Assembly: GCF_009720365.1 (NCBI RefSeq)
Contig: NZ_ML769317.1
Location: 12,313 to 76,312 of the forward strand
Direction: 5' to 3'
Length of the DNA: 64,000 bases
DNA from: Catellatospora paridis
GTDB lineage: Bacteria > Actinomycetota > Actinomycetes > Mycobacteriales > Micromonosporaceae
Part shown: in pieces, positions 29,162-62,608 of the stretch
Numbering within the stretch: position 1 is the stretch's first letter
Layout of the letters: each line of letters opens with the position of its first letter
The notes under the pieces: generated by a model
Told to the model about the DNA's origin: nothing
The model's input: the letters and a program-made list of their open reading frames with translations, nothing else
The model's database searches: none
Made by a program: the position numbers and the translations under genes

Positions 29162-29245
29162 GTCCGGGTGGCGGAATGGCAGACGCGCTAGCTTGAGGTG
29201 CTAGTGCCCGTATAGGGCGTGGGGGTTCAAGTCCCCCCTCGGACA
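29162..29245 (+). tRNA. tRNA-Leu (anticodon GAG)
   Basis: The 84-base gene folds fully. The acceptor pairs 29162-29168 with 29238-29244, with discriminator A29245. The anticodon stem pairs 29188-29192 with 29200-29204, with GAG at 29195-29197. A long variable arm and a GGGGG/CCCCC T-stem around TTCAAGT identify the leucine class. CCA is not encoded. Its 3' end is the probable insertion site of the downstream island. Confidence 0.96.
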
Positions 29246-29247
29246 CG

Positions 29248-30726
29248 TTAACCCCCACGCGAGCCTGCCTCGGTGGGGGTTTTTGCTGGTCGGCGCTGGT
29301 GTGGGACGCTCGCAGCGGTCGGGGCGACTGGGGGATTCGCGCCTTCGACCGTGACGACCCCGCCGAGTCCGCACATGATCACAAACTGGTACGCCCGCAG
29401 GTAGGCGGATACGGTGTTGGGATCGTCGGGCAGGCCGAGTTGGGCTGCCACCTCCGTGACGGCTTTGCGCTCGTGCACGTAGACATTGCGTGGCAGGCCC
29501 GAGTCGGCTTGGCTGCTGCTGCGTCGACCGTGCCGGCACCGGTACGCGGCCCGGCCATGCACCCAGTGCCCGTCCAGGACCCGGCCACACAGGTGGCATC
29601 TGATCAGCCCGGTCAGCGAGTAGCGAGTCTGTGGGCTGTTTGCGCCCTTCGGAACTGCGTTGATCTGCTGGGCGGCGACGAAGTCCTGTTCGCTGACCAG
29701 CGGTGGATGCGCGACGTCTTCGGAGATCACCCACTGCTGGATCGCGTTCCAGCGACGGGCCTCTGACCGGCCGAGCACATCATCGGCTCCCGACAGCGGA
29801 GCATAGTCGGTGCGCTGCCGGTTCCATGCCTGCCGACCGGTATAGCGCGGGTTGGCCAGGATCGCCGCCACGGTCCGTAGGGTCCAGGCCGCGCCACCGC
29901 GGTGCGGGTTACGGACCGGGTCGACACCAGACGGACACCGAACACCCAGCTCATTGAGTTCCCGGGCGATGCCGGCGACACTACGGCCCGATAAGCGCTG
30001 CACGAAGATCCACTGCACATGCGGCGCGGTGACCGGATCCGGCTCCAGCCGGTGCGCACGGCGGCCCCATCGGGCATGCCTCGCGTTCGGGTGGGGGCCG
30101 GCATCCACGAGCTGATACCCGTAAGGTGGGCGGCCTCCCACATGTCGGCCCTGCAACGCGACCTGCGCCTGCATGGCCGCCTTGGCCCGGAAGCGGGAGC
30201 GCAGCACCTCCCGCCGCGAGTGCACGCCCAGCAGCATCAGCAACGACAGGTGCAGCTCGTTGTCGACGTCGACCGGCCCGTCGAGCTCCGGTAGCCACAC
30301 CTGCACTCCGTAGCAATCGAACAACGGCGCCAGGCGTAGGAACTGGTCACCATAGAAGGCTCGCTCAAACTCGCCGACCACGATGGCGTCGAACGGCCGT
30401 TGCGGGTCAGCAATGGCTTCCAGCAGCAGCGCAGCTTGCGGCCGTTCGCTCCATTCCAGGCGGCGCGAGCAGCCGACGTCGAAGAACTCAGCCACGATCG
30501 TGCCGCGCCCCTCGATCAGATCCGCGGCGAAGTCGCGCTGCCACCGGGCGGACGATATCCAGTCCTGGAAGCCAGTGGTGGAGATCCGGCCGTAGAACAC
30601 GAACCGGAGTTCGCCGGCCGAAGGTGACGAGCGACGGTTCATGCGCGGCGCCCGGGCTGCACCGTGCGCTTGACGGATCCACCAGCCCAGCAGATCTGGT
30701 CCACCGTGCTGAACCGAGTCAGCCAT
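29248..30726 (-). CDS. large serine recombinase (integrase) of the island
   Basis: This 492-residue protein catalyses site-specific recombination. The resolvase domain carries the catalytic Ser in FYGRISTTGFQ, with FDAIVVGEFERAFYG further on. The recombinase domain (GRHVGGRPPYGY, then TLRTVAAILANPRYTGR) and a zinc ribbon (LIRCHLCGRVL and AYRCRHG) follow. The C-terminus runs into the terminator at 29251-29284. The ATG at 30726 has GAAGGGA about 9 bases upstream; in-frame codons continue to 30870 without support. It lies at the element edge next to the attachment site, as expected of an integrase. A deleted relative is at 63105-63589. Confidence 0.92.
   Translation of the reverse strand: MADSVQHGGPDLLGWWIRQAHGAARAPRMNRRSSPSAGELRFVFYGRISTTGFQDWISSARWQRDFAADLIEGRGTIVAEFFDVGCSRRLEWSERPQAALLLEAIADPQRPFDAIVVGEFERAFYGDQFLRLAPLFDCYGVQVWLPELDGPVDVDNELHLSLLMLLGVHSRREVLRSRFRAKAAMQAQVALQGRHVGGRPPYGYQLVDAGPHPNARHARWGRRAHRLEPDPVTAPHVQWIFVQRLSGRSVAGIARELNELGVRCPSGVDPVRNPHRGGAAWTLRTVAAILANPRYTGRQAWNRQRTDYAPLSGADDVLGRSEARRWNAIQQWVISEDVAHPPLVSEQDFVAAQQINAVPKGANSPQTRYSLTGLIRCHLCGRVLDGHWVHGRAAYRCRHGRRSSSQADSGLPRNVYVHERKAVTEVAAQLGLPDDPNTVSAYLRAYQFVIMCGLGGVVTVEGANPPVAPTAASVPHQRRPAKTPTEAGSRGG
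29251..29284 (+). terminator. rho-independent terminator after tRNA-Leu
   Basis: An 8-bp stem (29251-29258 with 29273-29280) is followed by TTTTT. It overlaps the recombinase 3' end, so the island supplies a new terminator for the tRNA. Confidence 0.85.
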
Positions 30727-31080
30727 GCGGCGGCTCCCTTCGGGAGAGCTTCGCGCTACATTGAGCAAATAATCATCAATTGGCTCGATTAGAGGCAATC
30801 CCCCAGAAGGGTCGCGCTGATCGAGTTCCTGTCGATGTCGGTTGGTGTCGCGCTCACATGTCAGCGACACCGAGGATTCACCGTCACCGCTGACCTGCTG
30901 GATCGGTGCGCCACGTGAGCCGGGGACGACGTTCCCGTGGCTGGTGGAGCGAGATTGGACGGGTTCATCCCATAGTCACTCATCGTCATGTCTCCGTTAC
31001 GGATCTCTCGACTGAGGCCCTCGCATTCAGTAGCATGATTGGGCCCGTCCATTTGCCTGGTGGTCCGTCTGGGGGAGTAG
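30727..31080. other. divergent promoter region of recombinase and nuclease genes
   Basis: This 354-base gap separates two divergent genes. A stretch at about 30760-30790 is A/T-rich and has an imperfect inverted repeat around ATAATCATCAATTGGCTC. The proximal part (about 30730-30775) has a match upstream of the recombinase pseudogene (about 63595-63632), so it belongs to the recombinase module. No gene is seen. Confidence 0.45.
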
Positions 31081-32655
31081 ATGGCGAAGCGATCGCCAAG
31101 TGCCGCCGAGTACCACCGCCGGCAACAGGCTCAAGCCAAGGAGGCCGCCCGGCAGCAGCGAGCGGCAGAGAACGCGGTCAAGGCGACGCAGCGCGCGGAG
31201 CGGGAGAATTACCTTGCGAGCAGAGGCCGCGAGGCGGATAACAAAACCCATGAGGTCCAGCAGCGGATGCTTTCCTTGCAGAGTCTGCTGGAAGTCGGTC
31301 TGCGGCGTTCAGCGCGCATCGATCTCGTCTCTCTGAAGAAGGCTCCAGAGAGCCCGCCGTTCGCGTCGGGCGCAGTCGGTGTGCCGGCGCAGCGTCCGTC
31401 ATGGGAGATGTTTGCACCTTCGCGTCCGGGAGTGATCAAGTCAGTTCTCGAAGGCCGTACGAGGCAGGAACAGCGGGAGCTCGCTGCAAGGCAGCAGTAC
31501 GAGGCAGCCCAGCGGGCGTGGGAGCAGAGCGAGCACGTCCGGCTCGAACGGCTCGCGGCGCTGAGGCGGGAGCACCTCGGTCTGCTGGCCGCCAAGCAAC
31601 AGGCGGCAGATGCTCACAACAGGGCGATCGATGAATTGGCGTCGGGCGTTCGGAGTAGGCGCAAGGACGCGGTGGAAAAGTACCTGCAGACCGTGCTGCG
31701 CCGCATGCCCCTGCCAGCCGTGTTCGCACGCCGCAGCGACGTGATCTACAGCCCGCACGCCGAGCAGGTGGTCGTCAGGCTACAGCTGCCTAGTCGTGAC
31801 GTCGTTCCCGTAGTCAAGGGCTACAGCTACATCCAGTCGAAGGATGAGCTCAGACCGGCACCGCGGCCCGCGAAGGAAGTTGCTGAGCTCTACCGTGCCA
31901 CGATCGCACAGGTAGCGTTGTTGGTGACCCGAGACCTGTTCGACGCCGACCCGATGCTGCGGGAGGTCGGCTTCAACGGACACGTGGACACCGTGGATCC
32001 CGCCACGGGGCAGAGCGTTTATCCCTGCCTCATCAGCCTGACCGTGGACAGGGACAGATTCAGCTCGTTGAACCTGCGCCAGGTCAACCCGGAGGACTGC
32101 CTGCGGCACTTGAACGCGCTGGTCTCGCAGCACCCATACGAGCTCAAGGGGATCACCCCGGTCCTGGACTTTGACCGCACAAAGTATGCGTTTGTCGAGG
32201 GCATGGACGCCGTAGCGATGCTCGACTCGCGACCCGACCTGATGCAACTGAGTGCCGGTGAATTCGAGCACCTCGTGCGCCAGGTTTTCGAGGCCATGGG
32301 CATGCAGGGTTGGACGACGACGCCGAGCAAGGACGACGGCGTTGATGGCGTGGTCTTCAATCCAACGCCGTTCGTCGGCGGTCTCACCATCGTTCAAGCG
32401 AAGCGGTACAAGGATGTCGTTGGCGTGAACCACATCCGCGAGCTGGCCGGCGCGATGGAGGAGAAAAAGGCCGGACACGGCGTCCTGGTGACCACATCGT
32501 GGTTCACCACTGGCGGTTGGCAGAAGGCTCGTGACCACGGACGCATCGAACTGGTCGACGGTCCGCGGCTGGTGCACCTCATCAAAGAACACCTAGGCAA
32601 AGATGTGCTGATCGGCATAAAGCGGCCGAAGACGGCCAGCACAGGGCCATCATGA
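31081..32655 (+). CDS. Mrr-type restriction endonuclease with long coiled-coil N-terminus
   Basis: This 524-residue protein probably cleaves foreign or modified DNA. The last 150 residues are the Mrr/PD-(D/E)xK nuclease: FEHLVRQVFEAMG, the catalytic Asp in DDGVDGVVF (about residues 417-422), QAKRYKDVVG (QxK, about 438) and GVLVTTSWFTTGG. The first 200 residues are charged and helical, and a middle part (200-370) is unrecognised and may recognise the target. The ATG at 31081 follows GGGGGAG by 6 bases. There is no methylase, so a type IV (modified-DNA) enzyme is likely. It is the first cargo gene beside the recombinase, a common place for defence genes. Confidence 0.85.
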   Translation: MAKRSPSAAEYHRRQQAQAKEAARQQRAAENAVKATQRAERENYLASRGREADNKTHEVQQRMLSLQSLLEVGLRRSARIDLVSLKKAPESPPFASGAVGVPAQRPSWEMFAPSRPGVIKSVLEGRTRQEQRELAARQQYEAAQRAWEQSEHVRLERLAALRREHLGLLAAKQQAADAHNRAIDELASGVRSRRKDAVEKYLQTVLRRMPLPAVFARRSDVIYSPHAEQVVVRLQLPSRDVVPVVKGYSYIQSKDELRPAPRPAKEVAELYRATIAQVALLVTRDLFDADPMLREVGFNGHVDTVDPATGQSVYPCLISLTVDRDRFSSLNLRQVNPEDCLRHLNALVSQHPYELKGITPVLDFDRTKYAFVEGMDAVAMLDSRPDLMQLSAGEFEHLVRQVFEAMGMQGWTTTPSKDDGVDGVVFNPTPFVGGLTIVQAKRYKDVVGVNHIRELAGAMEEKKAGHGVLVTTSWFTTGGWQKARDHGRIELVDGPRLVHLIKEHLGKDVLIGIKRPKTASTGPS

Positions 32656-32751
32656 GCCGCCGGCTTCTCGGCCTGCGGACGTACGCTCGTGGTTGCCACC
32701 AGCGGCGTTATCACGCTGTGTCACCGACAGTTGGTCGAGTAGTGTGCGGCG

Positions 32752-33268
32752 GTGGCGCCGAGGGCGTACCAGGAGCTGGGCATCGAGCAAGTGGCGGTGT
32801 GGGACCGTTTTATGCGCAGTTCGACTTCAGGCCCAGCATGCACCGCTTTCCGGCGATCACCGAGCCCACCCCGTCGGTTACCTGGAGCCTGAGCAGCCTC
32901 GGCGATGATGTCGGCTATACACGGCTGGACCACCTGGTCGAGGCCGTGCACGCTGGGCTCACCGGGCTGGTCGGTGACGGGCGCTCCTGTGCCTGGACTG
33001 GCAGCACCTCGACTACCGCGTTTGGCCCAGCCTTGTCGGGCCGGACAACATCGACCCACCGGGCGGACCAGGCTGGCCCCTGTCGCCATATCCTGACGGC
33101 GACTACTTCATCTACCTTGCGGAAGACTTCCGATTCGGCACTTTTGGCCATCCGTGGGAGCCGTCGCTGTGCGCCTTCGGCGGCGACCTGCTGGACCTGG
33201 TCGAAGCCAAGTTGCACGACGCTCTCGGCCAGGTCATACACCGCGACGGCCAGCAGGTGACGGTGTGA
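32752..33268 (+). pseudogene. DUF2716 gene with two frameshifts
   Basis: Three frames together give one DUF2716-like protein. The first has VAVWDRF, the second FYAQFDFRPSMHRFPAITEP, and the third LLCLDWQHLDYRV through PYPDGDYFIYLAEDFRF and FGHPWEPSLCAFGG to the stop at 33268. The frame moves once near 32812 and again near 32985, each consistent with a single-base deletion. Either the gene is broken or the assembly has two errors. DUF2716 function is unknown. Confidence 0.72.
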
Positions 33269-33602
33269 ACGAGGACCGCCAACGTGAGACCGTACGGCCA
33301 GATTAGCCGGGCGACGATCTGACGTCGTCCGCCGCCGACCGGCCATGGCGATCTTGGAAGCCGCAGCGGTGCCTGGATTGGCTCCAAGGTGGAAGGTACG
33401 GCAGAGCCCGCCAACGGAAGAGGCCTCCCCATGCGGGCTACTATTACGGTGAGAAACCCCGAGAAGGTCGGTGACGCAGTGCTGGGCTATGTGCTTTCGC
33501 ATCGAACGGGAAAGCCTCAGCTGACCTGGTACGACCCGACAGGCACGAAGCGCGAATCGAATACGGCAGCGCGTTCGATCTCCGCGGAAGCAGAAAATAA
33601 AA
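33269..33602. other. gap without a confident gene
   Basis: A short frame from 33431 (MRATITVRNPEKVGDAVLGY at its start) runs to 33679 but overlaps the lipoprotein gene, lacks a clear ribosome site and matches nothing I know. The lower GC just before 33603 may hold the lipoprotein start signals. Confidence 0.3.
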
Positions 33603-34613
33603 ATGGTTCTGACTACTACGCGTCGTCGCCTCTGCACCTCCGTCCTCCTGGTGACGCTCGCTCTGATCGCGGGGTGTAGCGGTCGCGGCCCAGACAACGA
33701 GGTCGTGAGCGACCCCCATGGCACGGACACGGTGGATCTGGTCGCCGCCATGGACGACGGATCGGTGTACTACGTCACCGCCCCTGCCTGGGAAGGTCCC
33801 GTGCGTCTGTGGTTCAAGCAATCCGAGAGCCACCAGCCGGTCGAAGTTCCCTACACCGACAGCCGCTGTACTCCCTTCTCGCCGATATCGATCAGCGCCA
33901 TCGGAGAACAAGCCATCGGCTTGGTGCTGGACTGCGGTGATGGATCAGCAGCCTTCGACGCGGTGATGTCGCAAGGAAGGTTCGAAAGACTCGAAGCTCG
34001 TCCTGTCGTACCATCCGCGAACCTCGCCGTGTGGCGGCCGGGAGCTGACGTTGCCTACTTCCAAGTCCTCCGACGCTGTGAGGGCTTGATCCGCTTGACG
34101 AAAGGTGGTGCGGTTGCGGTTCTGACGGGTAAGCCGCATGGCAGTTATTCATGGAGTGAGATGTCACTCGAACAGAGTTGTGGTGGCCCTGCTGTCGGCA
34201 CTGCCCTTGCACTGGATTCCGCGGGCGACCTACTCGCCTTCTCCGAGGGCATCAGCTCGTCGACGCGCCAGGTAGAGTTCAGGGATCCGGGCGTCGACCT
34301 GGTGGTTGTCGCCTCGGCATCCGGCTCGGTTCGCTATGTTCTGGACGAGGTCAGGGCACTCGACGGATCGGGATACCTGGCCGGATTCGCTTTTGTGCCG
34401 GGGACCTCGCAGCTTGCTCTGTCGGGAACTGTCGAGGACCATCCCGGCATCTGGCTGATCGACGTGCCCTCTGGGAACCGCCGGCGAATCCTTGACGGTG
34501 AATTCGGTGCACTCTCGCTTTCACCGGAGGGACGATTTCTGGCAGCCGTGTGCCGTCATTGCGACGGAGGCCTCACTCTGCTAGACCTTCGTTCACATGG
34601 TGTGGTTTCGTAG
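33603..34613 (+). CDS. lipoprotein with beta-propeller-like repeats
   Basis: This 336-residue protein has a lipoprotein signal (RRRLCTSVLLVTLALIAGC, with the lipobox Cys near residue 25), so it is tethered outside the membrane. The mature part is beta-rich with WD/PD40-like strands (ALDSAGDLLAFSEG, FVPGTSQLALSG, LSLSPEGRFLAAV) and scattered cysteines, two of them in CRHC. No family is assigned. The ribosome site before the ATG is weak. It is an island cargo gene. Confidence 0.75.
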   Translation: MVLTTTRRRLCTSVLLVTLALIAGCSGRGPDNEVVSDPHGTDTVDLVAAMDDGSVYYVTAPAWEGPVRLWFKQSESHQPVEVPYTDSRCTPFSPISISAIGEQAIGLVLDCGDGSAAFDAVMSQGRFERLEARPVVPSANLAVWRPGADVAYFQVLRRCEGLIRLTKGGAVAVLTGKPHGSYSWSEMSLEQSCGGPAVGTALALDSAGDLLAFSEGISSSTRQVEFRDPGVDLVVVASASGSVRYVLDEVRALDGSGYLAGFAFVPGTSQLALSGTVEDHPGIWLIDVPSGNRRRILDGEFGALSLSPEGRFLAAVCRHCDGGLTLLDLRSHGVVS

Positions 34614-35049
34614 CGGAGCCAAGCGACTGAAGATCGGTGACGTTTCGCGGCCCCTGCGAAATCATCATTGAGACCGCCCACCCCGAAACCCTCATCCCGC
34701 CCGCATCGGCAGCCAGCCACCGAACCCGACATCGGGGGAGTACCGATACTGCTCCAACTCCATATGCCGAACTGCAGATCGAGGCCCGCCCCACTGGCAA
34801 GGGACGGGCCCGCCGCGTCGACCGCTATGGACGGTGGTCCACGAAGCCGGGTTGGACCTGGAAGTCGTACAGGCCGCCGATCTCAGCCGAGCCCCCTCAC
34901 CCAGTTGGCCGCCGTGACGGTCTCCGGGGCGTTGTCCGTGCGGTGCGCGGCGGCGACCGGCCAGCGGGCGGCCAGTGGCGGGCGGCGGAGCTGCTACCGG
35001 CTCGCGCAACTTTAGCCTGGCGGCCCGGCGATTTCCGCCGCCCGGTATC
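34614..35049. other. gap with no confident gene
   Basis: Short stretches look once-coding in different frames, such as HEAGLDLEVVQAADLSRAPS near 34830-34890, but none is intact. It is probably debris between the lipoprotein gene and an attachment-like repeat. Confidence 0.35.
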
Positions 35050-35202
35050 GCGATCATGGAATTCGCAGGTCAGCCAACATCGTGATCATGTACTTAGGGT
35101 TCATATAGCCCCGGAGACTCCAGACTTTATCTCAGGTGCTGTTTTCCCTGCTCAAATGACGTTCGCGGGCCGCGTTTCGGGGTGCGTTTCGGGCGGCTCG
35201 CT
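35050..35202. repeat. attachment-like repeat, copy A
   Basis: The 48-base core 35065-35112 (from GCAGGTCAGC to TATAGCCCC) matches copy B at 40540-40587 in 43 of 48 bases. It also matches copy C at 59764-59811. Copies A and C stay similar for about 90 bases beyond the core, whereas copy B switches to tRNA-Leu sequence. Copy A may be an unrecombined site or a remnant of another element. Confidence 0.7.
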
Positions 35203-35333
35203 CAACAGGTGGAAAGGAGCGACGCTCCTTCGATCTGAGGTGATGTTGCGAGGCTTATGGCGGGGATCGCCGCCTGGGTGAGGCACGCATGTAGCACCCT
35301 TGCTTCAGTACGGCGTCATCCGGGACGGCGCAC

Positions 35334-35933
35334 CTAAAGGTGGGGGAGAGCTTCGCCGGGCCGGGGCTGGCGCTGCTGTTCGAGCCAGAATAGATAGCCG
35401 CGTAGGTATGCCTCCAGGCCGTCGTCGAGGTAGGCGACGAAGTCCCAGTGGCCTTGGGCGGCGTCGTGATAATGGCCCAGATATCTGGGGTGGGCGTTGT
35501 AGCCCCAATGCGGGTGTGTGTCGGCTCCCCAGTCGGCGGCGATGGCGACAGCCCATTGCCGTACCCGGCTTCGGTCCCGCCACCACCCACGTACGGTCTC
35601 CGCGGTCCAGTGGTCGTTGCCGTCCCAGTTATAGCCCCGGTAGAGCTCTAACCGGCAGCCGTTGACCACGGCCTCGGTCTCGCGCTCGTTCACCGGCTGG
35701 CGGTATATGAACTCGGATCCGAACCCGCCACCGAGATCGTCGTCGTAGCAGATGTGGTCTGGTGCATCCAGCCGCCCGATGGCCAGGCTGTCGGTCTCAC
35801 CGGCGTAGAAGGGGCCCGGGACGTTGCGCCAGTTCCGCTGTTCCCAGCGTCCGGTGAACAGCTCCTCGGCGGGCTCATTGAAGCTCTCCACCAACCGCCG
35901 GGCCGTGGGCAGCGGGTCCCAGTAGCCGATCAT
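35334..35933 (-). CDS. conserved actinobacterial hypothetical protein
   Basis: This 199-residue soluble protein has many Trp and Tyr and conserved-looking blocks: WDPLPTARRLVESFN at the N-terminus, TGRWEQRNWRNVPGPFYAGE, DHWTAETVRGWWRDRSRVR and LRGYLFWLEQQRQPRPGE at the end. I recall similar proteins scattered in actinomycetes without a function. The ATG at 35933 is the natural start; in-frame codons further upstream are antisense to the next gene. It lies 122 bases from the next gene on the same strand. Confidence 0.78.
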   Translation of the reverse strand: MIGYWDPLPTARRLVESFNEPAEELFTGRWEQRNWRNVPGPFYAGETDSLAIGRLDAPDHICYDDDLGGGFGSEFIYRQPVNERETEAVVNGCRLELYRGYNWDGNDHWTAETVRGWWRDRSRVRQWAVAIAADWGADTHPHWGYNAHPRYLGHYHDAAQGHWDFVAYLDDGLEAYLRGYLFWLEQQRQPRPGEALPHL

Positions 35934-36055
35934 CGCCCTATCTTGCCCGACGTGGGCGTCATGTTCCGGCGGACCTGGGGCGCCCACCGGAGACCTCGCA
36001 GGCACTTCCGCGCAGGCGCGCGGTGCCTGCCCAGGCTGGCCGCGCTCGTCGCGGG

Positions 36056-37108
36056 TTAGTTCCAGTTCGTGGCGGTGCATGTCGTGATCTGGCACCGCTC
36101 GCACAGGTAGAGGGTGCGCCAGCCGTGCCCGTACTCGCGGATGTAGTTCTGCACGGTGACGACGTGGAACATCAGGCGGTCGCAGCTGCGGCAGTGTGGG
36201 TTCGGGTAGAGACCTATCGGTGGGCCGCCTGCCGTCCCGACCACGCCCGGTGTCGACAGGACGTGTCCGTTGCTGTAGACGAGGTCGCTGTCGTACGGCC
36301 GGAGCACGGCGACGCCGATGCCGCGCGGGTCGCTGTTGTCGACCTCGGTTTCGTCTTCGCGAGGCGGCTCGTCGAAGGTCACGGTCTCGTCGTGCCAGAG
36401 GCCGTCCGGACCCGCCGCCGTGGTCAGCGTCCAGCCGACCGATCCTTTCGGGCTGGCCAGGTGCACCCGGTCGGCGGGCAAGTCCGGCATACCCGGCACT
36501 TGGTCGAGGCGCAGCGAAAGGTAATGCCATACCGCCGGGGTGGCCTCCGGTCGGCGAACGACCTGATCCAGTGGCAGTCCGACGGGATGATCCGCGGTTA
36601 GCAGCTCCGCGGGGTCGGACACGGTCCGGAGTTCGACCACCTGCCGGTGCGGAGTGAACCGGCATCGTGCCGGCCCGGTGGCAGGGGTCCAGATGCCCGA
36701 GTCCTCGAACTCCTTGCCCGGGTCCGCGCCGTCGCGGACGAGGCCGGCGATCGCGGTGAGCGCGGCCTCGGTTCCGATCGCCGCGAGCATCCACGCTTGC
36801 TGGTACGTCCAGCGGCTTCGTAGCCGCCGCTCCAGGTGCTCCACACGGCGATCGGGTGCGCCGTGGAACAGCACGCACAGGTTGTCGAAGGTCACGTCGA
36901 AACCGTCAATGAACTCGGTGACGACCGCGTCCTGATGCGGCCGGAACCACTCCGGACGGGTACCCGCCACGAACGCGAAGTGGTCGCCGAGGTCGTTGCG
37001 CAGCCGCTCGTCAATGGCGGCCCGTCCAAGAAGCTCCACCAGGGCTGTGACGTCGTCCGCGGTGTCGACCGGGAACGCGGCAGCACCGGTGTAGGTCTTG
37101 ATCGGCAT
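36056..37108 (-). CDS. hypothetical protein with C-terminal zinc ribbon
   Basis: This 350-residue soluble protein is mixed alpha/beta. The C-terminal 50 residues have two Cys pairs (CRSCDRLMF and LYLCERC, with a further Cys at TTC) that would bind zinc. The N-terminal half has ALVELLGRAAIDERLRNDLG and VEHLERRLRSRWTYQQAWML. I recognise no family. It is island cargo with the same orientation as 35334-35933. Confidence 0.75.
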   Translation of the reverse strand: MPIKTYTGAAAFPVDTADDVTALVELLGRAAIDERLRNDLGDHFAFVAGTRPEWFRPHQDAVVTEFIDGFDVTFDNLCVLFHGAPDRRVEHLERRLRSRWTYQQAWMLAAIGTEAALTAIAGLVRDGADPGKEFEDSGIWTPATGPARCRFTPHRQVVELRTVSDPAELLTADHPVGLPLDQVVRRPEATPAVWHYLSLRLDQVPGMPDLPADRVHLASPKGSVGWTLTTAAGPDGLWHDETVTFDEPPREDETEVDNSDPRGIGVAVLRPYDSDLVYSNGHVLSTPGVVGTAGGPPIGLYPNPHCRSCDRLMFHVVTVQNYIREYGHGWRTLYLCERCQITTCTATNWN

Positions 37109-37144
37109 TCGCGGACTGTATCAACGCAGCCGGATCGAGCCGGT

Positions 37145-37385
37145 CGTTCAGGGAATGAGTTCGGGGTGTACTCGACCCAGATGCGGGCGGTACGCAGGTC
37201 CGGCTCGCCTGCCGGGGTGTGACAACCGATGGCCCACAGCGCCATGAGCACCTGTGCCGGGAATCGGTGTGCCGCGTCCGCCGCTGCGGTGAACAGCTCG
37301 AGGTCGGCGCTGATGACGCCGTGTACCGCCTCCCACCTGCACCAGCCGCACCAGGCGGCCTACACATGGCCAGGGCCGCGTAGGA
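37145..37385 (-). pseudogene. remnant of a hypothetical gene
   Basis: The minus strand encodes a coding-like stretch, AVHGVISADLELFTAAADAA and then LMALWAIGCHTPAGEPDLRT, ending near WVEYTPNSFPE. The frame is cut by a stop upstream and no start fits. It is probably gene debris; the 385-base gap holds nothing else. Confidence 0.35.
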
Positions 37386-37511
37386 GACGACGGCGTGCGT
37401 GTGGCTGCTATCGGTTGGGCCTGTTCCGGCACTACGGTCTGCGCCTGATTCACCCCTCGATGGACTACGCCCCGATGCCCACACGGCCGGCTTGTGCAAT
37501 ACGCTGCCGCG

Positions 37512-38165
37512 ATGGAAGCAGCCGAGGAGGTTCTCGCTCAACTCGACGGTGCTGCGCGCGGCTCTGGGTTCGCCGATCCCGAGCATCCGTACTACTCGGC
37601 CATCGACGCGCGGATGCACGTGTTCCGTGATGATCACCGTTGGGCGTTGTTGATCGAACTTGTCGGCTACAACCCCCGTGCCGGAAACGTCGTCGATGTC
37701 TTGCACACGTACGGCAACTGCCTCACCCGAGGCCGACCCGGTTTCGAGGTCGAGGACTTCCACTCCCGGATAGACAACATGGACGAGATCGAGGATCGCG
37801 ACAACCCGGAGTACCTGTGCGTCGAGGGCGGGCCGATCGAGGTCCGCGGGCAGCGGGTGCCGGTGCCTGCACGCGTCGGCGACCTGCTCGAAGATGTGTT
37901 TCGCCTGCTCGTGCCGGAGCATCGCGATCTGCTGCTGGCCGACGATGCTGAGCTGCGTCGACGTATCCCGGCGGAGCTGCCTCGGATCCTGGTGCTCGAA
38001 GAGTGGCGGCATCGCGAGCCGGACCACTACGACCAGCTGCCCAGTGAGACGGAGACGTTCCGGCAGCTCGCCGAGGTCCTGGCGACCGGTGATCCCACCA
38101 GATACCGGCCGTCCGCAGCGCCGAATACGCACTGGTCGAACTGGCCGGAATCGGGGTCGCTGTGA
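37512..38165 (+). CDS. DUF7003-like protein, first gene of a five-gene operon
   Basis: This 217-residue soluble protein has conserved blocks ARMHVFRDDHRWALLIELVG, NPRAGNVVDVLHTYGNCL, DFHSRIDN and the C-terminal NTHWSNWPESGSL. These fit, from memory, the DUF7003 family, whose function is unknown. The ATG at 37512 gives MEAAEEVLAQLD; a GTG at 37494 is possible. Its stop overlaps the next start by 4 bases. The operon of five unrelated small soluble proteins resembles arrays of immunity or effector genes, but no toxin is adjacent. Confidence 0.8.
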   Translation: MEAAEEVLAQLDGAARGSGFADPEHPYYSAIDARMHVFRDDHRWALLIELVGYNPRAGNVVDVLHTYGNCLTRGRPGFEVEDFHSRIDNMDEIEDRDNPEYLCVEGGPIEVRGQRVPVPARVGDLLEDVFRLLVPEHRDLLLADDAELRRRIPAELPRILVLEEWRHREPDHYDQLPSETETFRQLAEVLATGDPTRYRPSAAPNTHWSNWPESGSL

Positions 38166-38548
38166 GCAAGGAGATCGCTGAGGGCGAGGAGACCGGCCTT
38201 CGGCAGTTGGTCGGTTTAGAGGTCAGTGCCGTCTGCTTCGTCAGAGACTATGTCGAGTTGCACTTTGACGGACCGGTCCTGCGGGCGGTGAGCGATCCGT
38301 TCGGCCACTGCGGCTGTCAGGGCTGGCGGTTTCCCGAAGGAAACTCGCCCATCCTCATGCGCTCCTACATCGGCACGACCGTCGACGGGTTCGAGCTGAT
38401 CCCGGATCGGTTTCTTGCCCTCGACTTCGGCGAGCATCGTTTCGTTATCCCGCTGGATGAAGCCTCGCGGAGCGGTCCGGAGGCAGCGCACCTACAAATT
38501 CCTGATCCCGGCGGTTCGTCTGGCCGCCACCATTTGTGGATCTGGTGA
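38162..38548 (+). CDS. hypothetical protein, operon gene 2
   Basis: This 128-residue soluble protein is beta-rich (VSAVCFVRDYVELHFDG, then DRFLALDFGEHRFVIPLDE). It has GHCGCQGW in its middle. The GTG overlaps the upstream stop (GTGA) and the next gene follows after 7 bases, so it is co-translated. I recognise no family. Confidence 0.72.
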   Translation: MSKEIAEGEETGLRQLVGLEVSAVCFVRDYVELHFDGPVLRAVSDPFGHCGCQGWRFPEGNSPILMRSYIGTTVDGFELIPDRFLALDFGEHRFVIPLDEASRSGPEAAHLQIPDPGGSSGRHHLWIW

Positions 38549-38555
38549 TGTCGTC

Positions 38556-39092
38556 ATGAACCAAGGGACGAACAGATACCTTGTCGCGCACGATTACGAC
38601 ATGGGCGCCTTTTGGTGGTGGGTGTGGGCCGGGTCGGCGGCGGAGATCGTCGAGAAGTGCGCCGAGGTCGAAGTCGTCACCGATCCGGACGTGCTGCGTC
38701 GCACCGAGGCGTGGGATCTTCCAGTTGTCTACCTTGGCGCCGACGACCTGGGACCGTTGGAGAGTTTCCGTGCCAAGCGGGATGCTCAGTGTGATCAGCC
38801 AGGGTTCGGCGTTCTCGTCGGTCGTGGGGTGGTGCACGTGCGGTACGAGGACCCGGACGTTGAAGAGACGTTCGACGGGGCGTATCTGCTGGAGTTGGGT
38901 TCGGACGGGCGGCGCCTGCGGCAGGTCGTGATCGAATCCGATGGGTCCGTTACTGCGGAGGGGCCCGACGAATGGCCGTTCAACCCGCCCTTCGACCTGT
39001 ACGACCCGAAGCTGGCCGCGATGCAGATCGCCGGCAGCGAGTTCGAAGCCGCCTTGTCGAACGCCCGGACCGTGAACGGAGCCAAGGCATGA
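38556..39092 (+). CDS. hypothetical protein, operon gene 3
   Basis: This 178-residue soluble protein starts RYLVAHDYDMGAFWWWVWA and has EIVEKCAEVEVVTDPDVL, QPGFGVLVGRG, LELGSDGRRLRQVVIESDG and a C-terminal DLYDPKLAAMQI. The blocks recall a family of actinobacterial hypothetical proteins with no known function. The stop overlaps the next start by 4 bases (ATGA). Confidence 0.77.
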   Translation: MNQGTNRYLVAHDYDMGAFWWWVWAGSAAEIVEKCAEVEVVTDPDVLRRTEAWDLPVVYLGADDLGPLESFRAKRDAQCDQPGFGVLVGRGVVHVRYEDPDVEETFDGAYLLELGSDGRRLRQVVIESDGSVTAEGPDEWPFNPPFDLYDPKLAAMQIAGSEFEAALSNARTVNGAKA

Positions 39093-39778
39093 GTCCCGCC
39101 ACCGTCACCACGGTGTACGACATCGCGTCAGCGCTGCCGGACATCGAGACTTTGCGCCACCGCTGCCGTGCTTTGGCGATCCTTGAGGTGATCATCAGCC
39201 CCGAGTGGGAGTCGCGCTACTACTCCTTCGACGCAGCCTGGAACACCGGTGAGCAGATGGCATCGATGCGTAATGGCAGCGGGGACGAGTACTCGATCGT
39301 GTTCACTGCCGCCGGCGCGTTCATCCGCGGCTTTGACCACGAGTCACCGATGAGCCGGTTTGGCAACGGCGGCGAGCTGTGGCCAGGTCTGCTCGACGGC
39401 GTGCCGGACGTGTTCGCTTCGCAGGTCGCCGAGCCTGCATTCAGCTACGCCGGGAAGCTGAGCGCGACCTTCTGCCTCTGGCGCCAGAGCGAAGACGCCG
39501 GTTGGCGCACCGGTCGCCTCGACTTTCCCGCAGTCCGCGGATACCGCGACGACCCGGACGGCTCCGGTCTGCTGAAGATCCTCTGCGATGGCAGCGGTGA
39601 CGCATATCGGGCATTCGCGACCGACTACTACGAGGTCGAAATCGACCAGGCTGCGGTGACGCACATCTATGCCCGGCTGCCGTTGGACGACCACATCGTG
39701 CGGCTGTTGAATCCAGACCTGGTCCTCGCCGACGTCGCGGACGAGGTCACCGCCATGGAGGAGACGCGTCGTGCCTGA
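39089..39778 (+). CDS. hypothetical protein, operon gene 4
   Basis: This 229-residue soluble protein has AILEVIISPEWESRYYSFDA and a GDEYSIVFTAAGAFIRGFDH block, with Trp-rich centre (FCLWRQ and GWRTGRLDF). The C-terminal part reads AFATDYYEVEIDQ and HIVRLLNPDLVL. The first blocks are conserved in actinobacterial hypothetical proteins. It overlaps its neighbours by 4 and 8 bases. Confidence 0.77.
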   Translation: MSPATVTTVYDIASALPDIETLRHRCRALAILEVIISPEWESRYYSFDAAWNTGEQMASMRNGSGDEYSIVFTAAGAFIRGFDHESPMSRFGNGGELWPGLLDGVPDVFASQVAEPAFSYAGKLSATFCLWRQSEDAGWRTGRLDFPAVRGYRDDPDGSGLLKILCDGSGDAYRAFATDYYEVEIDQAAVTHIYARLPLDDHIVRLLNPDLVLADVADEVTAMEETRRA

Positions 39779-40331
39779 AGGACCACCCATCGCCGGTCTG
39801 CAACGATATGAGTACGTGGGATCGCCGGAGATCCGCGACGCTGTCGCGTCCGCAGGCAGCGGTCGTGCGATCCTGGCGGCAATCGACGTGGCCGAGTGGC
39901 TTGGCGGCCTGCCGGCCCGGGACCGATCGCAGCCGCACACGTTCGTCGTCGATGTGACGGGCGTTCTGCGTGTAGCGGCCCGGCGCAGCGAACACGTCGC
40001 GTGCGCCGGTGGTGAGCCGGTGCTCAGTGCTGGAGAAATCACCTTCACTCGCCACGATCAGGGTTGGTTGGTCAGTGAGGTCACCAACCAGTCGACCGGC
40101 TACTGCCCGCGCGTTTCCTCCTGGACCGCTGTGGCCGCGGCGTGCGAACGCGCCGGTCTGGACGATCCGGGCGGGTTCACCACCGCGTTCGAATTTCGCC
40201 ACTGCCCCGAGTGTCAGCAGATCAACATCGTGAAGGACGAAGACTTCACCTGCCTGGCGTGTGGTGTCGGCCTGCCTGCGGAGTGGAACTTCACGGGCAG
40301 GCCGGATTTTCCGGCGCCGCGCGGCACATGA
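39771..40331 (+). CDS. hypothetical zinc-ribbon protein, operon gene 5
   Basis: This 186-residue soluble protein has a beta-rich N-terminal domain (QRYEYVGSPEIRDAV, then VTGVLRVAARRSEHVACAGG and SEVTNQSTGYCPRVSSW). A C-terminal zinc ribbon is formed by CPECQQINIV and FTCLACG. The GTG overlaps the upstream stop by 8 bases. It ends the operon about 210 bases before the island's right end. Confidence 0.77.
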   Translation: MPEGPPIAGLQRYEYVGSPEIRDAVASAGSGRAILAAIDVAEWLGGLPARDRSQPHTFVVDVTGVLRVAARRSEHVACAGGEPVLSAGEITFTRHDQGWLVSEVTNQSTGYCPRVSSWTAVAAACERAGLDDPGGFTTAFEFRHCPECQQINIVKDEDFTCLACGVGLPAEWNFTGRPDFPAPRGT

Positions 40332-40539
40332 GCGATTCCCTGAAAGCGTGGCCCCGAGGCCGAGCTGATCTTCCCTCCCACCCCTTCCTCTGGGCCATCG
40401 CTAGTTCAGAGAAACCTGAATCCGGCTGATCGATGCTGCACGGCCGAGATACTCGCCGCGTGCGGAGGCGTTTCGTCGCTGGATCAATCGCTTGCTGCAT
40501 GGTCATCGACAGGTTCCGCCCCTGGCGATCAGCATAATT

Positions 40540-40596
40540 GCAGGTCAGCGGCCATTGTGATCATGTACTTAGGGTTCATGTAGCCCCTCGGACACG
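40540..40596. repeat. island right attachment junction (copy B of the repeat)
   Basis: Bases 40540-40587 are the 48-base element-side repeat also present at 35065 and 59764. Bases 40572-40596 match the tRNA-Leu 3' end (29223-29247) in 22 of 25 positions. CCCC is common to both halves, so crossover probably lies in or beside it. Nothing else is seen from 40332 to 40539. Confidence 0.7.
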
Positions 40597-40603
40597 CAAA
40601 TCC

Positions 40604-40635
40604 AGCGAGGCATCAGTCATTGACTATGCCTCGCT
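40604..40635 (+). terminator. hairpin, probable original tRNA-Leu terminator
   Basis: A 10-bp stem (40604-40613 with 40626-40635) is extended by 5 inner pairs (40615-40619 with 40621-40625). It begins 8 bases after the tRNA-like tail, the distance expected for the terminator of an uninterrupted tRNA gene. Confidence 0.65.
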
Positions 40636-40766
40636 TATGTTTCTGCTGCTGAGCTCGTTGTCGGGGGATTCCCGACCCTCGTCTTGAGCCGTTGGCAAGC
40701 GGTCTAACGGTGATCGGCTTCTCCTGATCGGGTTCGAGCGAGATGCTCGTCGCGCGGCATCATGGT

Positions 40767-40813
40767 GTACGAAGTCGCGCCGCCACGGAGTCCGTGACGG
40801 CGCGACCTCGTAC
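40767..40813. terminator. long hairpin terminator of the 1946-residue gene
   Basis: A 23-bp stem (40767-40789 with 40791-40813, two mismatches) lies just beyond the stop of the reverse-strand gene at 40828. It is the longest simple hairpin found in the window. Confidence 0.8.
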
Positions 40814-40827
40814 CAGATGGTGCTTGT

Positions 40828-43800
40828 CTACCTCAGACGGCCGTTCTTGCCGATGCGGACAACGTCACCGTCCAACCGGCCGACGCCGGCCAGTGACGTG
40901 CCGCCGTTGGTCTTGACCCCGGCGTTGGTCGGTGGTGTGCCGCCCAGCCTGATGATCATGGCATCGGTGTCGCGGACGAGTACCGCCCGGACTTCGGCCT
41001 CGGGCACCAGCGAGGTGTTCAACGCGAGCGCGCGGAACTCCTTGAGCTGGTTGATGGCCTTGGCGTCGTTGCCGTTCGCCTCGGACTGGCGAGCCGCTGT
41101 CAGCTTGGTCGTCAACTTCTTGTGCGCGTTGGCCGAAAGCCGGCTGGTCGCCTTGAACCGGTCCAGCAGGTTCTGCATGTCCCGGAACGAGGTCGTCACG
41201 TAGAACCGCACTGTCGAGACCGTCTTGTTGCCGGCCTTGTCTGTGGCGGTGACCGTCAACTCGTGCAGGCCGAGCCGCAGCTCGTACATGGCCTGCAGGG
41301 TGCCGGTCGCGTACGACGCGCCGTTGAGCGTCCCGACGACCGACGCGATACCAGAGGTCGGATCTACGGCCTGGAAGGTGACCCGGACGTCCTGGCTGTC
41401 GCCGTAGAGCTGGCCGTCGGCCAACCCTGCCACGATGACGGTCGGCTGGTTGCCGTCGACCTTCAGGTTGGCGGACTTCAGCGTCTCCACGTTGCCGGCC
41501 CCGTCGGTGGCCCGGTAGAGCAGCTCGTGCTGCCCGTCGCCGCCGATGTTGACAGGCTCGGTGTAGGGCGTCCACGACCCGCCGTCCAGTGACCACTCCA
41601 GCTTGGCCACGCCGGCACCGGCGTCGGTGGCGGCGAGCACCACCGGCACCTGCCCGGCGTGCCAGCCGTCGTCGTTGGCCGGTGCGAACGTCGCCGTGGT
41701 GATCGGCGCCGTGACGTCGACCTTCACCTCGACGGTCTTGGCCTGCTCGATGTTGCCCGCGGTGTCGGTGGAGCGGTAGCGCAGCTGGTGCATTCCGGTC
41801 CCGCTGATCAGCACCGGCTCGGTGTAGGTGGTCCACGTCGTGGCGTCGTCGAGCTGGTACTGAGTGGTCGCGACGCCGCTGCCGGCTGCCTCGTCGGCGG
41901 CGGTCAGGGTGACCGTCGGCGACTCGGTGTACCAGCCGGCGGTGGCCGTGCCGGTTACTGCTGCCGTGGTGACCGGCGCTGTGGTGTCGCCGGTGCCCGG
42001 CGTGGTCAACCGGAAGTAGTCGAAGCTTGCCGGCTTCGACGCCGTCTGGTTGGCGCCGAGCGTGAACAGCCCGACCTTGGCAGTGTCACCGACGGCCGTG
42101 TTGGTCAGCGGCTCCAGCGCCGTCCAGGTGGTGCCGTCCGCCGAGTAGGACGCCGTGTAGACGCTGCCCACCCGGGCCAGTCGCAGGTGCCATACCGCGC
42201 CAATGAGGTTGGTGATTCCGGGTTGCGGGTTCTGTACCACGCTCGCGATCTCGCTGCGGAACTCGATCCGCCGGCTGACCGGCGAGCCGGCCGTGTTGTC
42301 GACGATGTAGTCCAGCTTGAGGTAGTTGTCGTCGTCGAGGTAGACCAGCAGGCCTGCCTGCTGGTACTGCTCGTTGAGCTGGCTGCCGTCGACCTTCGTC
42401 TCCAGCGTCCAGTCACCGGACGGCGCGTTCTGCAGGATGAAGTTGGTAGGCCCGGTGTTGGCACCTGTGTAGATGTCCCCGTTGGGCACGTCGATCTCCA
42501 GCTTGCCGCCGGCGACCCGGTATTTGCTGGTGTCCTCGCGGACTACTGCGTTCCACTTGCACCGGTCCAGGGTCGACCCGTTGAACTCGTCGGACGGGTC
42601 AATGGGCCCGGTCGGAGCGTCCGGGGTGACCTGGAACCAGTCGAACGCCGCGTCGACGACCGGCGCGGTGGTGCCGCCGTTGAGGGCGAACATGCCCACC
42701 TTCGGGTTGACGATGCCGGCCAGCGCGGCCGACTGCCCGACCGGCGCGAACGTCACGCCATCAGCTGACCAGGCCGCCGTCAGGTTCACGCCGTCACTGG
42801 TCAACCGCAGGTAGGCCGTGCTGCCGAGCTCTGCCGGGGCGCTGACCGCGTCGGCGGCGCCGTTGCGCGGCGACCCGGCGGTCTCCCGGATGAACTCGAA
42901 CTTCCTGGAGCCTGCGTACAGCAGGTCGAGCTTGGCGTAGTTCTCGTCGTCGCCGTACACGATCAAGCCGGCCTGCTGGTAGTCGGCCGCCACGGCGACG
43001 GACACCTTGGTGGTCGCCTGCCAGGCGCCGTCCGGCGCCGGCTGCAGGATCAGGTTGGTCGCGTCGTTGCGGGTGCCGTAGAGGTCGCCGACCGCGGTGG
43101 GCAGCAGCAGCGTGCCACCGGCCACCGAGTAGAGCTGGTTCTCCCGGACCACTGTCGACCAGCGGCCCTTGTCCAGTGCCGTGCCGTCGAAGTTGTCCGA
43201 CCGGGCGCCGAGGCAGGCGTTGTTCGGCGCTTCGACCCTGACGACCACATTGGCGTACGACTTCGCGCCGCGCGCATCGGACACGGTCAGCGTCGCGGTG
43301 AACGTGCCGGGGGTGGCGTAGGTGTGCGTGGCGTTGGCGGTGCCGGCTGTGGCGCCGTCTCCGAACTCCCACAGGTAGGTCAGCGGGTTGTCGCCCTCGG
43401 CGTCGGTCGCCGAGCCGGTGAAGGTGACCAGCACCGGCGCGGTGCCGGTGGTGGGCGTCGCTGACGCGGTGACCACCGGTGGCGCGTTGTCGGTCACGCC
43501 GCGTCCAAGGAAGTCGACCCAGTTGACGTTGAACAACGAACCCGTGCCGGTGTCGCCTACCGGGTTCTTCGCTACCAGGAACAGCGGCCCTGTCACCGTG
43601 CTCGGGTTGCTCAGCGTCGCCGTGACATCGGTGAAGCTCTGCCAGCCGCCGGTGCCCGGCACTGTCGCGGTGGCGAGCACCGGCCCGTCCGCCGCGCCGG
43701 CCCGTACCTCGATGCGTCCGCCAGCGGCGTTCGACGCCACCCGGAACCGCAGCGCGTCGATACCGGTCAGGTTCACCGGGGCGTACGACCAGAAGTCGCC

Positions 43801-46668: not shown

Positions 46669-46913
46669 GAAGAATCTCCAATGCCTGGACGGGACTTCAG
46701 AGCCCGCCGCGGCTCGCCGAAGACCAGTGGGGGGGGTAATAGTTCACGCCCCAAACAAACTAGCGGCGCTACCGAAGTTGTGGTCAGAATGATGCCGGTC
46801 AATTTGGTAACGCTTCGATAACGCCCGACACCGACAGAGTCCTGGCTGGGTAATCCATTAGGGACCCTAGTAAACCGGGCACGACCACTCACCATCGAGC
46901 CGCCCGACGGTCA
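46669..46913. other. upstream region of the giant gene
   Basis: It holds the promoter of the gene at 40828-46668. The segment AACGCTTCGATAACG (about 46809-46823) resembles a half-palindromic repressor site, but it is weak. Nothing else is visible. Confidence 0.3.
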
Positions 46914-47224
46914 CGACTCCGAAAGCGATCTCGCTACCAGTACGGCTTCGGCCTGCGCGAGTTTGCGCTCGGCGGCGTTACGGGCCCGTTGTGCGGTGGT
47001 TCGGGTCAGGCGAAGGCCCGTTAGTTCCTGTCGGGCGTCGTCGCGTCGCCACCGAAGTTCGGTGTGTTCCTTCTCCAGCTCGGCCAGCTCGCGGGTGGCC
47101 GGCTGCTTGGCCTCGGCCGCCTCGTCCAGCGCCGAGCCTCCTCCTCGCGCGCCGCGTCAACGTCGGCGCGCAGCCAATCGATCTCCGCCGCCCGCTGCGA
47201 GCCGGCGCACGGAGGTCGGTGCAA
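46914..47224 (-). pseudogene. frameshifted coiled-coil protein fragment
   Basis: The minus strand encodes IDWLRADVDAAREEEA in one frame and ALDEAAEAKQPATRELAELE through LTGLRLTRTTAQRARNAAER to a stop at 46914 in another. The frame changes near 47140. The combined sequence is a charged coiled coil typical of plasmid/transposon accessory proteins. The 5' part is absent. The following 300 bases to 47540 show no gene. Confidence 0.5.
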
Positions 47225-59749: not shown

Positions 59750-59900
59750 AGGATCATGGATCGGCAGGTCACCAGCCATCGTGATCATCTACTTAGGGTT
59801 CATGTAGCCCCGGAGACGCCAGACTTCAGCCCGGAGATGTTCTCCCTGTTCAATGCCGTTGTCGAGGCCGCGCTTCGGGGTGCGTTTGGGGCGGCTCGCC
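59750..59900. repeat. attachment-like repeat, copy C
   Basis: The 48-base core 59764-59811 (from GCAGGTCACC to GTAGCCCC) matches copies A and B, and the similarity to copy A continues to about 59900. No intact gene lies in 59320-60255; this repeat and the following recombinase remnant are the only contents seen. Confidence 0.7.
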
Positions 59901-60090
59901 GAAGCGTGAGTGGACCTTGATTGCAGCGCGACCTCGCCAGCCTCGTCAGGGCACTTGCACCCCGGCCGGGATCTGCGCCCTGCAATGGGATCTTGAAAGT
60001 GGGGATGAGCTGGTCGCCCATGATGTGGATCTCGAAGACGTGGGTTTCGACTATCGCCTTGCGCTGGCTGGGGGCCAGCCGCATTGAGAC
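59800..60090 (-). pseudogene. remnant of a recombinase 3' end next to attachment-like repeat C
   Basis: The minus strand encodes RLAPSQRKAIVETHVFEIHI and MGDQLIPTFKIPLQGAD, then a low-complexity tail ending SGVSGAT and a stop inside the repeat. The middle resembles the C-terminal end of actinobacterial serine recombinases as I remember them. The rest of the gene is absent. If right, the repeat is an attP-like site beside an integrase gene. Confidence 0.45.
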
Positions 60091-60255
60091 GGATCGCTCG
60101 CAGGGCACTGAGCAGGTAAAACGAGGATCTTTCGGTGGAAGCACAACGGGCACTTCGCCGTGCCGGACGGGCCTGCGGTTGCGTCCCGGCGGCCGTAGCC
60201 AGCGAATACCCAGTGTGTGACGGTACGAAAACCATTCTTTGTGGAGGGAGATCGA

Positions 60256-61020: not shown

Positions 61021-61029
61021 CGCGAAGGC

Positions 61030-61065
61030 CGGTGTGCCCCGGATCGCTGGGTCCGGGGCACACCG
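61030..61065. terminator. hairpin terminator after the CHAP gene
   Basis: A perfect 14-bp stem (61030-61043 with 61052-61065) around an 8-base loop begins 10 bases after the CHAP stop. The convergent amine oxidase gene ends at 61208. Confidence 0.85.
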
Positions 61066-61207
61066 TTCACTCCCCAACCGACGGCCACCAGCAGCGGGGT
61101 TCTGGGCGACGGATTTACAGCCCGAGCGCAAGATGTCCGTTGAGCTGCAGTTGTCCGCGAGAATTTCACCGTTCCCCCGGACAATCCCCGGATCTTGCAT
61201 GTCGAGG

Positions 61208-62578: not shown

Positions 62579-62579
62579 C

Positions 62580-62608
62580 GTCTTCTCCTTCTGAGTCTTC
62601 TCCTTCTG
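62580..62608 (-). promoter_or_regulatory. tandem ribosome-binding-site repeat
   Basis: The 14-base unit CAGAAGGAGAAGAC (minus strand) occurs twice with a 1-base spacer. Each holds AAGGAG; the near one is 6 bases from the amine oxidase GTG. Copy-number change here could tune translation. Confidence 0.6.

Follow-up and report, generated by a model that had tools for sequence, protein, structure and literature searches.

A probable tandem stack of site-specifically integrated units at tRNA-Leu(GAG) in Catellatospora

Does the DNA behind tRNA-Leu(GAG) in Catellatospora paridis form one integrated island, or has this gene received several mobile units? The question arises from a 64,000-nucleotide stretch of contig NZ_ML769317.1 (the window), for which an original prediction proposed a single 11.3-kb island between the tRNA, with its adjoining serine recombinase, and a near-duplicate of the tRNA 3' end. 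We consider the region to be a tandem stack of site-specifically integrated units, a reading to which we assign a probability of roughly 0.8. Several units lie in one orientation behind one target, with junctions derived from attachment (att) sites between them. The order in the window is tRNA, TCGGACAC, a large serine recombinase (LSR) unit, a P-end (to 35112), a cassette that begins with GGAGAC, a second P-end (to 40587), TCGGACAC and a stump. Here, P-end denotes the right end of a mobile unit, a repeat of ~48 bp with the T-arm-like tail GGGTTCATGTAGCCCC. The proposed island comprises an LSR unit at 29247-35112, which carries a type IV restriction enzyme, and a recombinase-less cassette at 35113-40587.

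Units and junctions in the window

The features that delimit the units are as follows.

29162-29246, plus strand: tRNA-Leu(GAG), the attachment gene (ARAGORN) and the sole tRNA in the window
29235-29246, plus strand: left copy of the 12-bp core CCCCTCGGACAC (attL; 3' strand of the tRNA acceptor)
29248-30870, minus strand: LSR gene reading toward the tRNA; longest frame 540 aa, start uncertain (Pfam)
29250-29285, plus strand: hairpin and T-run just past the tRNA, found by eye; presumed replacement terminator from the LSR unit
35065-35112, plus strand: P-end of the recombinase unit (internal repeat copy)
35113-35283, plus strand: left end of the cassette, beginning GGAGACTCCAGACTT, with a hairpin and a T-rich stretch (15-copy alignment; 85-89% identity with the copies in genomes G004 and G003)
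40540-40587, plus strand: P-end of the cassette; the predicted near-duplicate is its tail plus the core
40584-40595, plus strand: right copy of the core CCCCTCGGACAC
40588-40760, plus strand: stump of an older LSR element, with a left end of the GCAAATCCAGCGAGGCAT type and a presumed recombinase 3' end

The tRNA-Leu gene, the adjoining serine recombinase and the near-copy of the tRNA tail with three mismatches are all real; 22 of 25 bases agree between 29223-29247 and 40572-40596 (read by eye). The recombinase stop does adjoin the tRNA, with a gap of 1-2 bases (stop codon at 29248-29250) rather than the three bases originally given. A 23-mer of the tRNA tail, with up to three mismatches, occurs only at these two places in the window (0 of 100 shuffles). 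A short, identical core of 12 bp, at 29235 and 40584, bounds the region on both sides and restores the target gene; the exact common core is 13 bases, CCCCTCGGACACG, at 29235-29247 and 40584-40596. The 13-base core at up to one mismatch is not rare (2 found versus 0.40 expected; 6 of 100 shuffles reach 2). We therefore regard this core alone as weak border evidence, and the argument is carried instead by the dispersed repeat and by comparative breaks.

A repeat search, in which 40540-40602 started the family, placed P-ends at 35065-35112, 40540-40587 and 59764-59811. The far copy, originally described as a near-duplicate of the tRNA 3' end, is the mobile unit's own right end (the 48-bp repeat) followed by a tRNA-derived core. 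The region is not one island either, because a second junction at 35112|35113 divides the recombinase unit from the cassette. The DNA to the right of 40597 had been taken as host flank; however, 40584-40759 aligns with another LSR element's left end. The stump is identical in 140 of 182 columns (77%, 4e-33) to the tRNA-adjacent LSR left end at locus L198 in another genus, and it resembles G009 sequence too. Its alignment to L198 stops at 40759, and homology with seven relatives starts at 40742-40766.

Pfam detects PF07508 Recombinase (6.9e-19) and PF13408 in the window LSR, so that a protein with Recombinase and zinc-ribbon domains adjoins the attachment site. The only recombinase matched within the island is of this serine type, and none was found in the cassette frames (35334-40331). 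The cassette has a P-end as its right end and GGAGAC, not the tRNA core, as its left end. The G+C content is 64.6 and 65.8% in the two units versus 71.5% on the left flank.

Comparison within Catellatospora and beyond

Eleven Catellatospora genomes (ten relatives), one per species, were compared. The tRNA body is identical in all 11, and the DNA past the terminal CCCCTCGGACAC falls into several unrelated types, one shared by G007 and G002 and one by G005 and G004. Homology with the window extends 0 bases past 29246 in seven of the ten relatives and 3, 4 and 26 bases (to 29249, 29250 and 29272) in the others. The breaks at 29246 uphold the earlier proposal of an integrated element at the tRNA 3' end, though not that of a single island. 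Relatives had been expected to include an empty site joining 29247 directly to 40597, and this joint is present in 0 of the 11 genus genomes. It is found in form at L198, where the tRNA is followed directly by 40597-type sequence; judged from that sequence, this is the left end of an LSR element at an occupied site, not an empty site.

P-ends recur throughout the genus. Thirty copies (at least 30 of 48 matches, some weak at 33/48) were counted in 8 of the 11 genomes, the window genome included, in a scan of selected stretches. When whole genomes were searched with a 31-base piece of the P-end (up to three mismatches), 6 of the 11 genus genomes gave a match. Among 300 family genomes 6 did so, each of them from Catellatospora, with Catellatospora tritici and C. 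sichuanensis as named species (reversed-pattern controls, 0). What follows a P-end is either TCGGACAC (the tRNA 3' end) or GGAGACTCCAGACTTC with a hairpin and a T-rich stretch; several copies have other or decayed sequence after them. All 15 P-ends within ~160 kb downstream of the tRNA, one of them weak, lie in its orientation. As a separate observation, the P-end at G007 C2:794866-794896 (L045) holds a repeated 15-bp unit, TTCATGTACTTAGGG, which is an expansion inside the site.

The P-end|GGAGAC junction is likewise recurrent. GGAGACTCCAGACTTC at up to one mismatch gives 15 matches in the 11 genomes (reversed-pattern control, 1), 14 of which lie behind a P-end; the single match without one, in G008, is in unrelated sequence. 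G009 carries four such cassettes in a row (5.0, 2.8, 3.6 and 5.8 kb), each terminated by a P-end, the last of which is followed by TCGGACAC. The 15-copy alignment was built from copies chosen for GGAGAC behind a P-end, leaving out a P-end followed by AGAGATTCC (G004 C30) and P-ends with other followers. The invariant CCCCGGAGAC in this alignment was accordingly not used as evidence, being partly built in by the choice of copies. Two other interpretations of GGAGAC were set aside. It could be the 3' end of another tRNA; however, the G008 copy without a P-end holds no tRNA. A pattern of a T-arm plus CCGGAGAC has nine imperfect matches in the window's own genome (best, one mismatch) versus one for the reversed control. 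The junction could also be a coding end, and the minus strand is partly open there, but the length of the left half varies out of frame (by eye).

An all-against-all comparison of the arrays provided breakpoints, and four segments were chosen for a close look since they reach a junction. All four break at the junction. The right ends in G008 and G002 are 96% identical over 2.3 kb up to CCCCTCGGACAC and unrelated beyond it. Two G009 cassettes are 88-89% identical to a G005 right end over ~310 bp up to CCCC, followed by 12-15% over the next 40 nt. A cassette left end common to G004 and G003 is 92% identical over 1.6 kb from GGAGAC on, behind P-ends that are not alike (78% in the final 40 nt up to the junction versus 100% in the next 40). 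Homologous recombination within the P-end would not place a break at GGAGAC behind differing P-ends, whereas the other three breaks, at the edge of a shared P-end, do not by themselves separate mechanisms. In one further case (G005 C9), an LSR left end is present twice (1164 bp, 99.7%, three mismatches), at ~89010 beside the tRNA and at ~186910 behind a P-end at the contig end. These copies, ~98 kb apart, represent a recent second copy or a tandem.

One left-end type offers a further indication of a recombinase site. GTACATGATC lies exactly 14 nt past the junction in six left ends, one of them from another genus, and forms an inverted repeat of 11 exact nucleotides with the P-end's GATCATGTAC; when the mononucleotides of one left end were shuffled 5000 times, none of the shuffles gave it. 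The resulting dyad is centred within CCCC and resembles an LSR attP. At G004 C30 (oriented 7155) and G005 C23 (oriented 8758), the left end behind the P-end is of the GTACATGATC type but has a core other than TCGGACAC; these units are perhaps specific for other targets, or decayed.

The recombinase family itself extends to other genera, with LSR matches (E<=1e-40) in 60 of 150 family genomes. Among 28 other-genus loci taken from the best matches, ARAGORN places tRNA-Leu(GAG) at 11, and TCGGACAC lies within 271 nt of the end of the LSR match at 20 (19 exact, one with a mismatch); a chance one-mismatch match in L200 was left uncounted. With two more loci that have tRNA-Leu(GAG) further off, 22 of these 28 lie beside the tRNA or TCGGACAC. 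Twelve further LSR 3'-end stretches from five multi-LSR genomes gave exact TCGGACAC in eight, a one-mismatch copy in one and none in three (17 stretches were taken, five of which repeat loci of the 28; matches inside the LSR gene are uncounted, and these are plain counts at any distance). Approached from the tRNA side, a whole or partial LSR lies within 1.5 kb at 18 of the 30 loci that match best, and at 15 of the 25 in other genera. At six of these 18, the best LSR match spans only about the last 20-90 residues, like the stump in the window. Right ends in other genera have as little as TCGGACAC in common with the tRNA. tRNA-Leu(GAG) gave one match per genome (E<=1e-25) in 84 of the 86 family genomes with a match, among 101 searched. 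Within Catellatospora, LSR matches or remnants occur anywhere in the genome in 8 of the 11 (E<=0.001, some weak).

Docking model and rival explanations

The common ends, breakpoints, orientation and LSR adjacency that emerge from these comparisons can be accommodated by the following model. In a circular unit, the LSR gene would lie at the end nearest the tRNA, and its product would recombine the unit's attP with the tRNA, the exact crossover bases presumably lying within the CCCCTCGGACAC core. For the unit at 29247-35112, the circle would have the P-end joined to TCGGACACGTTAACC. The incoming unit would supply its own TCGGACAC and terminator, so that the tRNA would stay intact, with a fresh terminator and the recombinase gene behind it. 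Insertion would displace the previous junction, P-end|TCGGACAC, to the far end. Either the tRNA or an existing junction could then receive further units, if the LSR acts on these junctions as well, and units would consequently pile up in one orientation. They would then decay, at times to a stump of ~115-270 bp that keeps the terminator behind the tRNA.

An LSR needs little sequence identity. The rest of the 12-bp core would therefore be most readily attributed to selection that preserves an essential tRNA, and the terminator behind it may be under selection too. Such selection predicts that ends unable to restore the tRNA are found only behind another unit, and 14 of the 15 GGAGAC copies fit. 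Because the GGAGAC left end cannot rebuild the tRNA, these cassettes would be tolerated only behind another unit's P-end, moving perhaps in trans or together with a neighbour. A tentative extension, which we regard as possible but not probable, is two-tier docking: units with the tRNA's 3' end would dock at the tRNA, and recombinase-less GGAGAC cassettes only behind an existing P-end. The result would be an integron-like, one-way array of defence and other cargo, its order enforced by the essential single-copy tRNA.

Several observations weigh against a stack built by site-specific integration. No proven empty tRNA site exists among the 11 genus loci, and neither an excised circle nor presence/absence within a species was seen among genomes that represent one per species. 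In G001, G003 and G010, the tRNA has no LSR match beside it. Docking at the tRNA does not explain the P-ends that lie far from it on the opposite strand (606 kb in G003 and 7.31 Mb in G008), or one on another contig (G007 C2). Many other shared segments start or stop away from junctions, and for each of the four chosen ones the opposite end falls within a unit. The inverted repeat was put to the test after it had been spotted by eye, the six left ends that show it are homologous, and it is absent from the window's own left end and GGAGAC end (longest match 6 and 3, respectively). Pfam did not detect the N-terminal Resolvase domain (PF00239) in the window LSR, although it did so in the G002 and G005 relatives. 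In other genera, 6 of the 28 loci lack both TCGGACAC and tRNA-Leu(GAG), three of them having TTCGACAC behind a T-arm and three neither, and the three TCGGACAC-free stretches among the 12 further ones point the same way. Lastly, at 12 of the 30 tRNA loci no LSR was matched within 1.5 kb; a contig end cuts one of these loci. The TTCGACAC loci (L199, L200 and L204) have a different tRNA-like tail, called as Arg by ARAGORN in one, which suggests target switching with the T-arm kept.

The most serious rival holds that P-ends are ordinary dispersed repeats and that the stacks were reshuffled by homologous recombination, with the LSR not acting on internal junctions. P-ends are well conserved over at least 48 bp and alike enough for homologous recombination to have built some arrays, breaks at the repeat edge are expected either way, and LSRs are broken or partial in several genomes. 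Among the breakpoints only the G004/G003 cassette, alike from GGAGAC on behind differing P-ends, counters this explanation. The uniform orientation of the P-ends downstream of the tRNA over ~160 kb (15 of 15, one weak) and the fit of one left-end type's inverted repeat to a recombinase site also speak against it, and we judge it unlikely. We are more doubtful still of an integron-like process in which a recombinase captures GGAGAC cassettes singly at P-ends and P-end|GGAGAC serves as an attC-like site. The four same-orientation cassettes in G009 (2.8-5.8 kb), with no match to the window LSR inside, fit such capture. Two of them, however, have related cargo (69% over 2 kb), which makes duplication possible, and cassettes hold several frames in both orientations, with GGAGAC left ends that have no dyad. 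The integron hallmark, an IntI tyrosine recombinase, was not encountered, the island's matched recombinase being of the serine type; no search was made for attI, attC or a cassette promoter. As for one 11.3-kb element between the tRNA and its near-copy, with an incidental internal repeat, the outer borders alone fit and one recombinase was found between them. The internal junction at 35112|35113, however, recurs in the genus (15 copies aligned, including a run of four in G009), and 40588-40760 is the left end of another LSR element, which leaves this explanation very improbable.

Related systems and remaining features

The architecture appears closest to that of the Dehalococcoides ssrA islands and to the accretion of cis-mobilizable elements (CIMEs). 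Passages of PMC3146451 describe islands in tandem that follow a structural RNA gene and have short repeats of the gene's 3' end as borders, with a conserved motif before each repeat that is unlike the RNA gene. The serine recombinase DsiB (540 residues) lies beside attL on the reverse strand, and 15 islands without an integration module were suggested to be cis-mobilizable (PMC3146451). The likeness lies in the tandem layout, the RNA-gene-end bounds, the reverse-strand serine recombinase and the module-less members. The Dehalococcoides target differs, being transfer-messenger RNA (tmRNA) rather than tRNA-Leu, in another phylum, and DsiB is a CcrB homologue whose proposed partner is a second small recombinase, unlike the window system (PMC3146451). 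The same passages contain no class of non-restoring left ends like GGAGAC. Accretion of CIMEs with integrative and conjugative elements (ICEs) and integrative and mobilizable elements (IMEs), as outlined in parts of PMC5704250, is alike in that recombinase-less, att-ended units stand beside autonomous ones, enter at an existing att site and leave remnants. In the table lines consulted there, tyrosine recombinases accompany the elements that occupy tRNA genes, in contrast to the serine type found here, and the internal junctions of the window carry GGAGAC rather than a tRNA tail.

Accretion of actinomycete ICEs (AICEs) at tRNA-Arg is noted in part of PMC9513070. A portion of PMC3218068 records serine recombinases of Mycobacterium AICEs that insert in tRNA-Leu, and calls serine-recombinase insertion in tRNA genes rare; we liken these eight recombinases to the window LSR by description, not by sequence. 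No AICE transfer or replication family (FtsK/TraB-like translocase, replication initiator) was matched at E<=0.001 among nine island proteins, a set that leaves out 35334-35933. Elements of the staphylococcal cassette chromosome (SCC) type insert in rlmH by means of ccrA/ccrB pairs. They are alike in their serine recombinases, their insertion in an essential gene and their composite stacks with recombinase-less members (in part from passages of PMC3146451). SCC differs in its target, rlmH rather than tRNA-Leu, and is likened here by description, not by ccr sequence. In the searches made of the open-licence PMC literature, an LSR stack at tRNA-Leu(GAG) across several Micromonosporaceae genera, together with a non-restoring cassette class, looks new.

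One LSR family uses the same, usually single-copy tRNA in several genera of the Micromonosporaceae and appears to stack units there. Because recognisable stumps are left behind, the history of insertion would be readable, and the resemblance of the P-end to a tRNA T-arm hints at a route by which an LSR could have acquired a tRNA target. For actinomycete genetics, short attP/attB pairs located in a conserved tRNA could be of practical use. The hotspot is also worth searching for defence genes, given the type IV restriction enzyme in the window and two Jet (Wadjet) sets in relatives. PADLOC matches (E<=1e-5) for 103 proteins of eight selected stretches include JetA, JetB, JetC and JetD (Wadjet) with two members each, CARF-HEPN and a type I methyltransferase with two each, and MkoA and mad3 with three each, among the matches listed (25 of 277 families). 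A 6.9-kb segment is common to G009 (oriented 31743-38604) and G003 (oriented 15967-9105) at 88%, in opposite orientations within the two arrays; it probably corresponds to the two Jet sets.

The remaining genes of the two units and the features of the right flank are as follows.

31081-32655, plus strand: type IV methyl-directed restriction enzyme (Mrr_cat; Pfam 4e-30, PADLOC mREase_IV 2.1e-114)
33603-34613, plus strand: 336-aa open frame without a family match, not chosen by the codon-usage caller and possibly no gene
35334-35933, minus strand: cassette frame
36056-37108, minus strand: cassette frame
37494-38165, plus strand: cassette frame, DUF7003 (Pfam)
38556-39092, plus strand: cassette frame
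39089-39778, plus strand: cassette frame
39771-40331, plus strand: cassette frame, not chosen by the codon-usage caller
40761-47214, no strand assigned: ThuA/PQQ-type gene block, the nearest conserved segment to the right (95-97% in seven relatives)
59764-59811, plus strand: third P-end, followed by a left end of the GGAGACGCC type
63100-63660, minus strand: decayed copy of the window recombinase, in pieces

No cassette gene has a clear function, one frame matching DUF7003 and the others having no family match. The block at 40761-47214, which contains a gene that we take to be of the ThuA/PQQ type, is 95-97% identical in the seven relatives versus 84-91% for the tRNA left flank there. Its neighbours differ between the relatives looked at; the block was considered as the fixed core flank, but it may itself have moved between species. 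CAACTAAATCCC, to the right of some junctions, was considered as native host flank and rejected, since in G002 and G009 it heads 1.75 kb that is 85% alike and includes an LSR. Beyond the block, further P-ends and a broken recombinase copy (59764-64000, to contig position 69437; also G000 C6:197373) may represent older units further along the contig.

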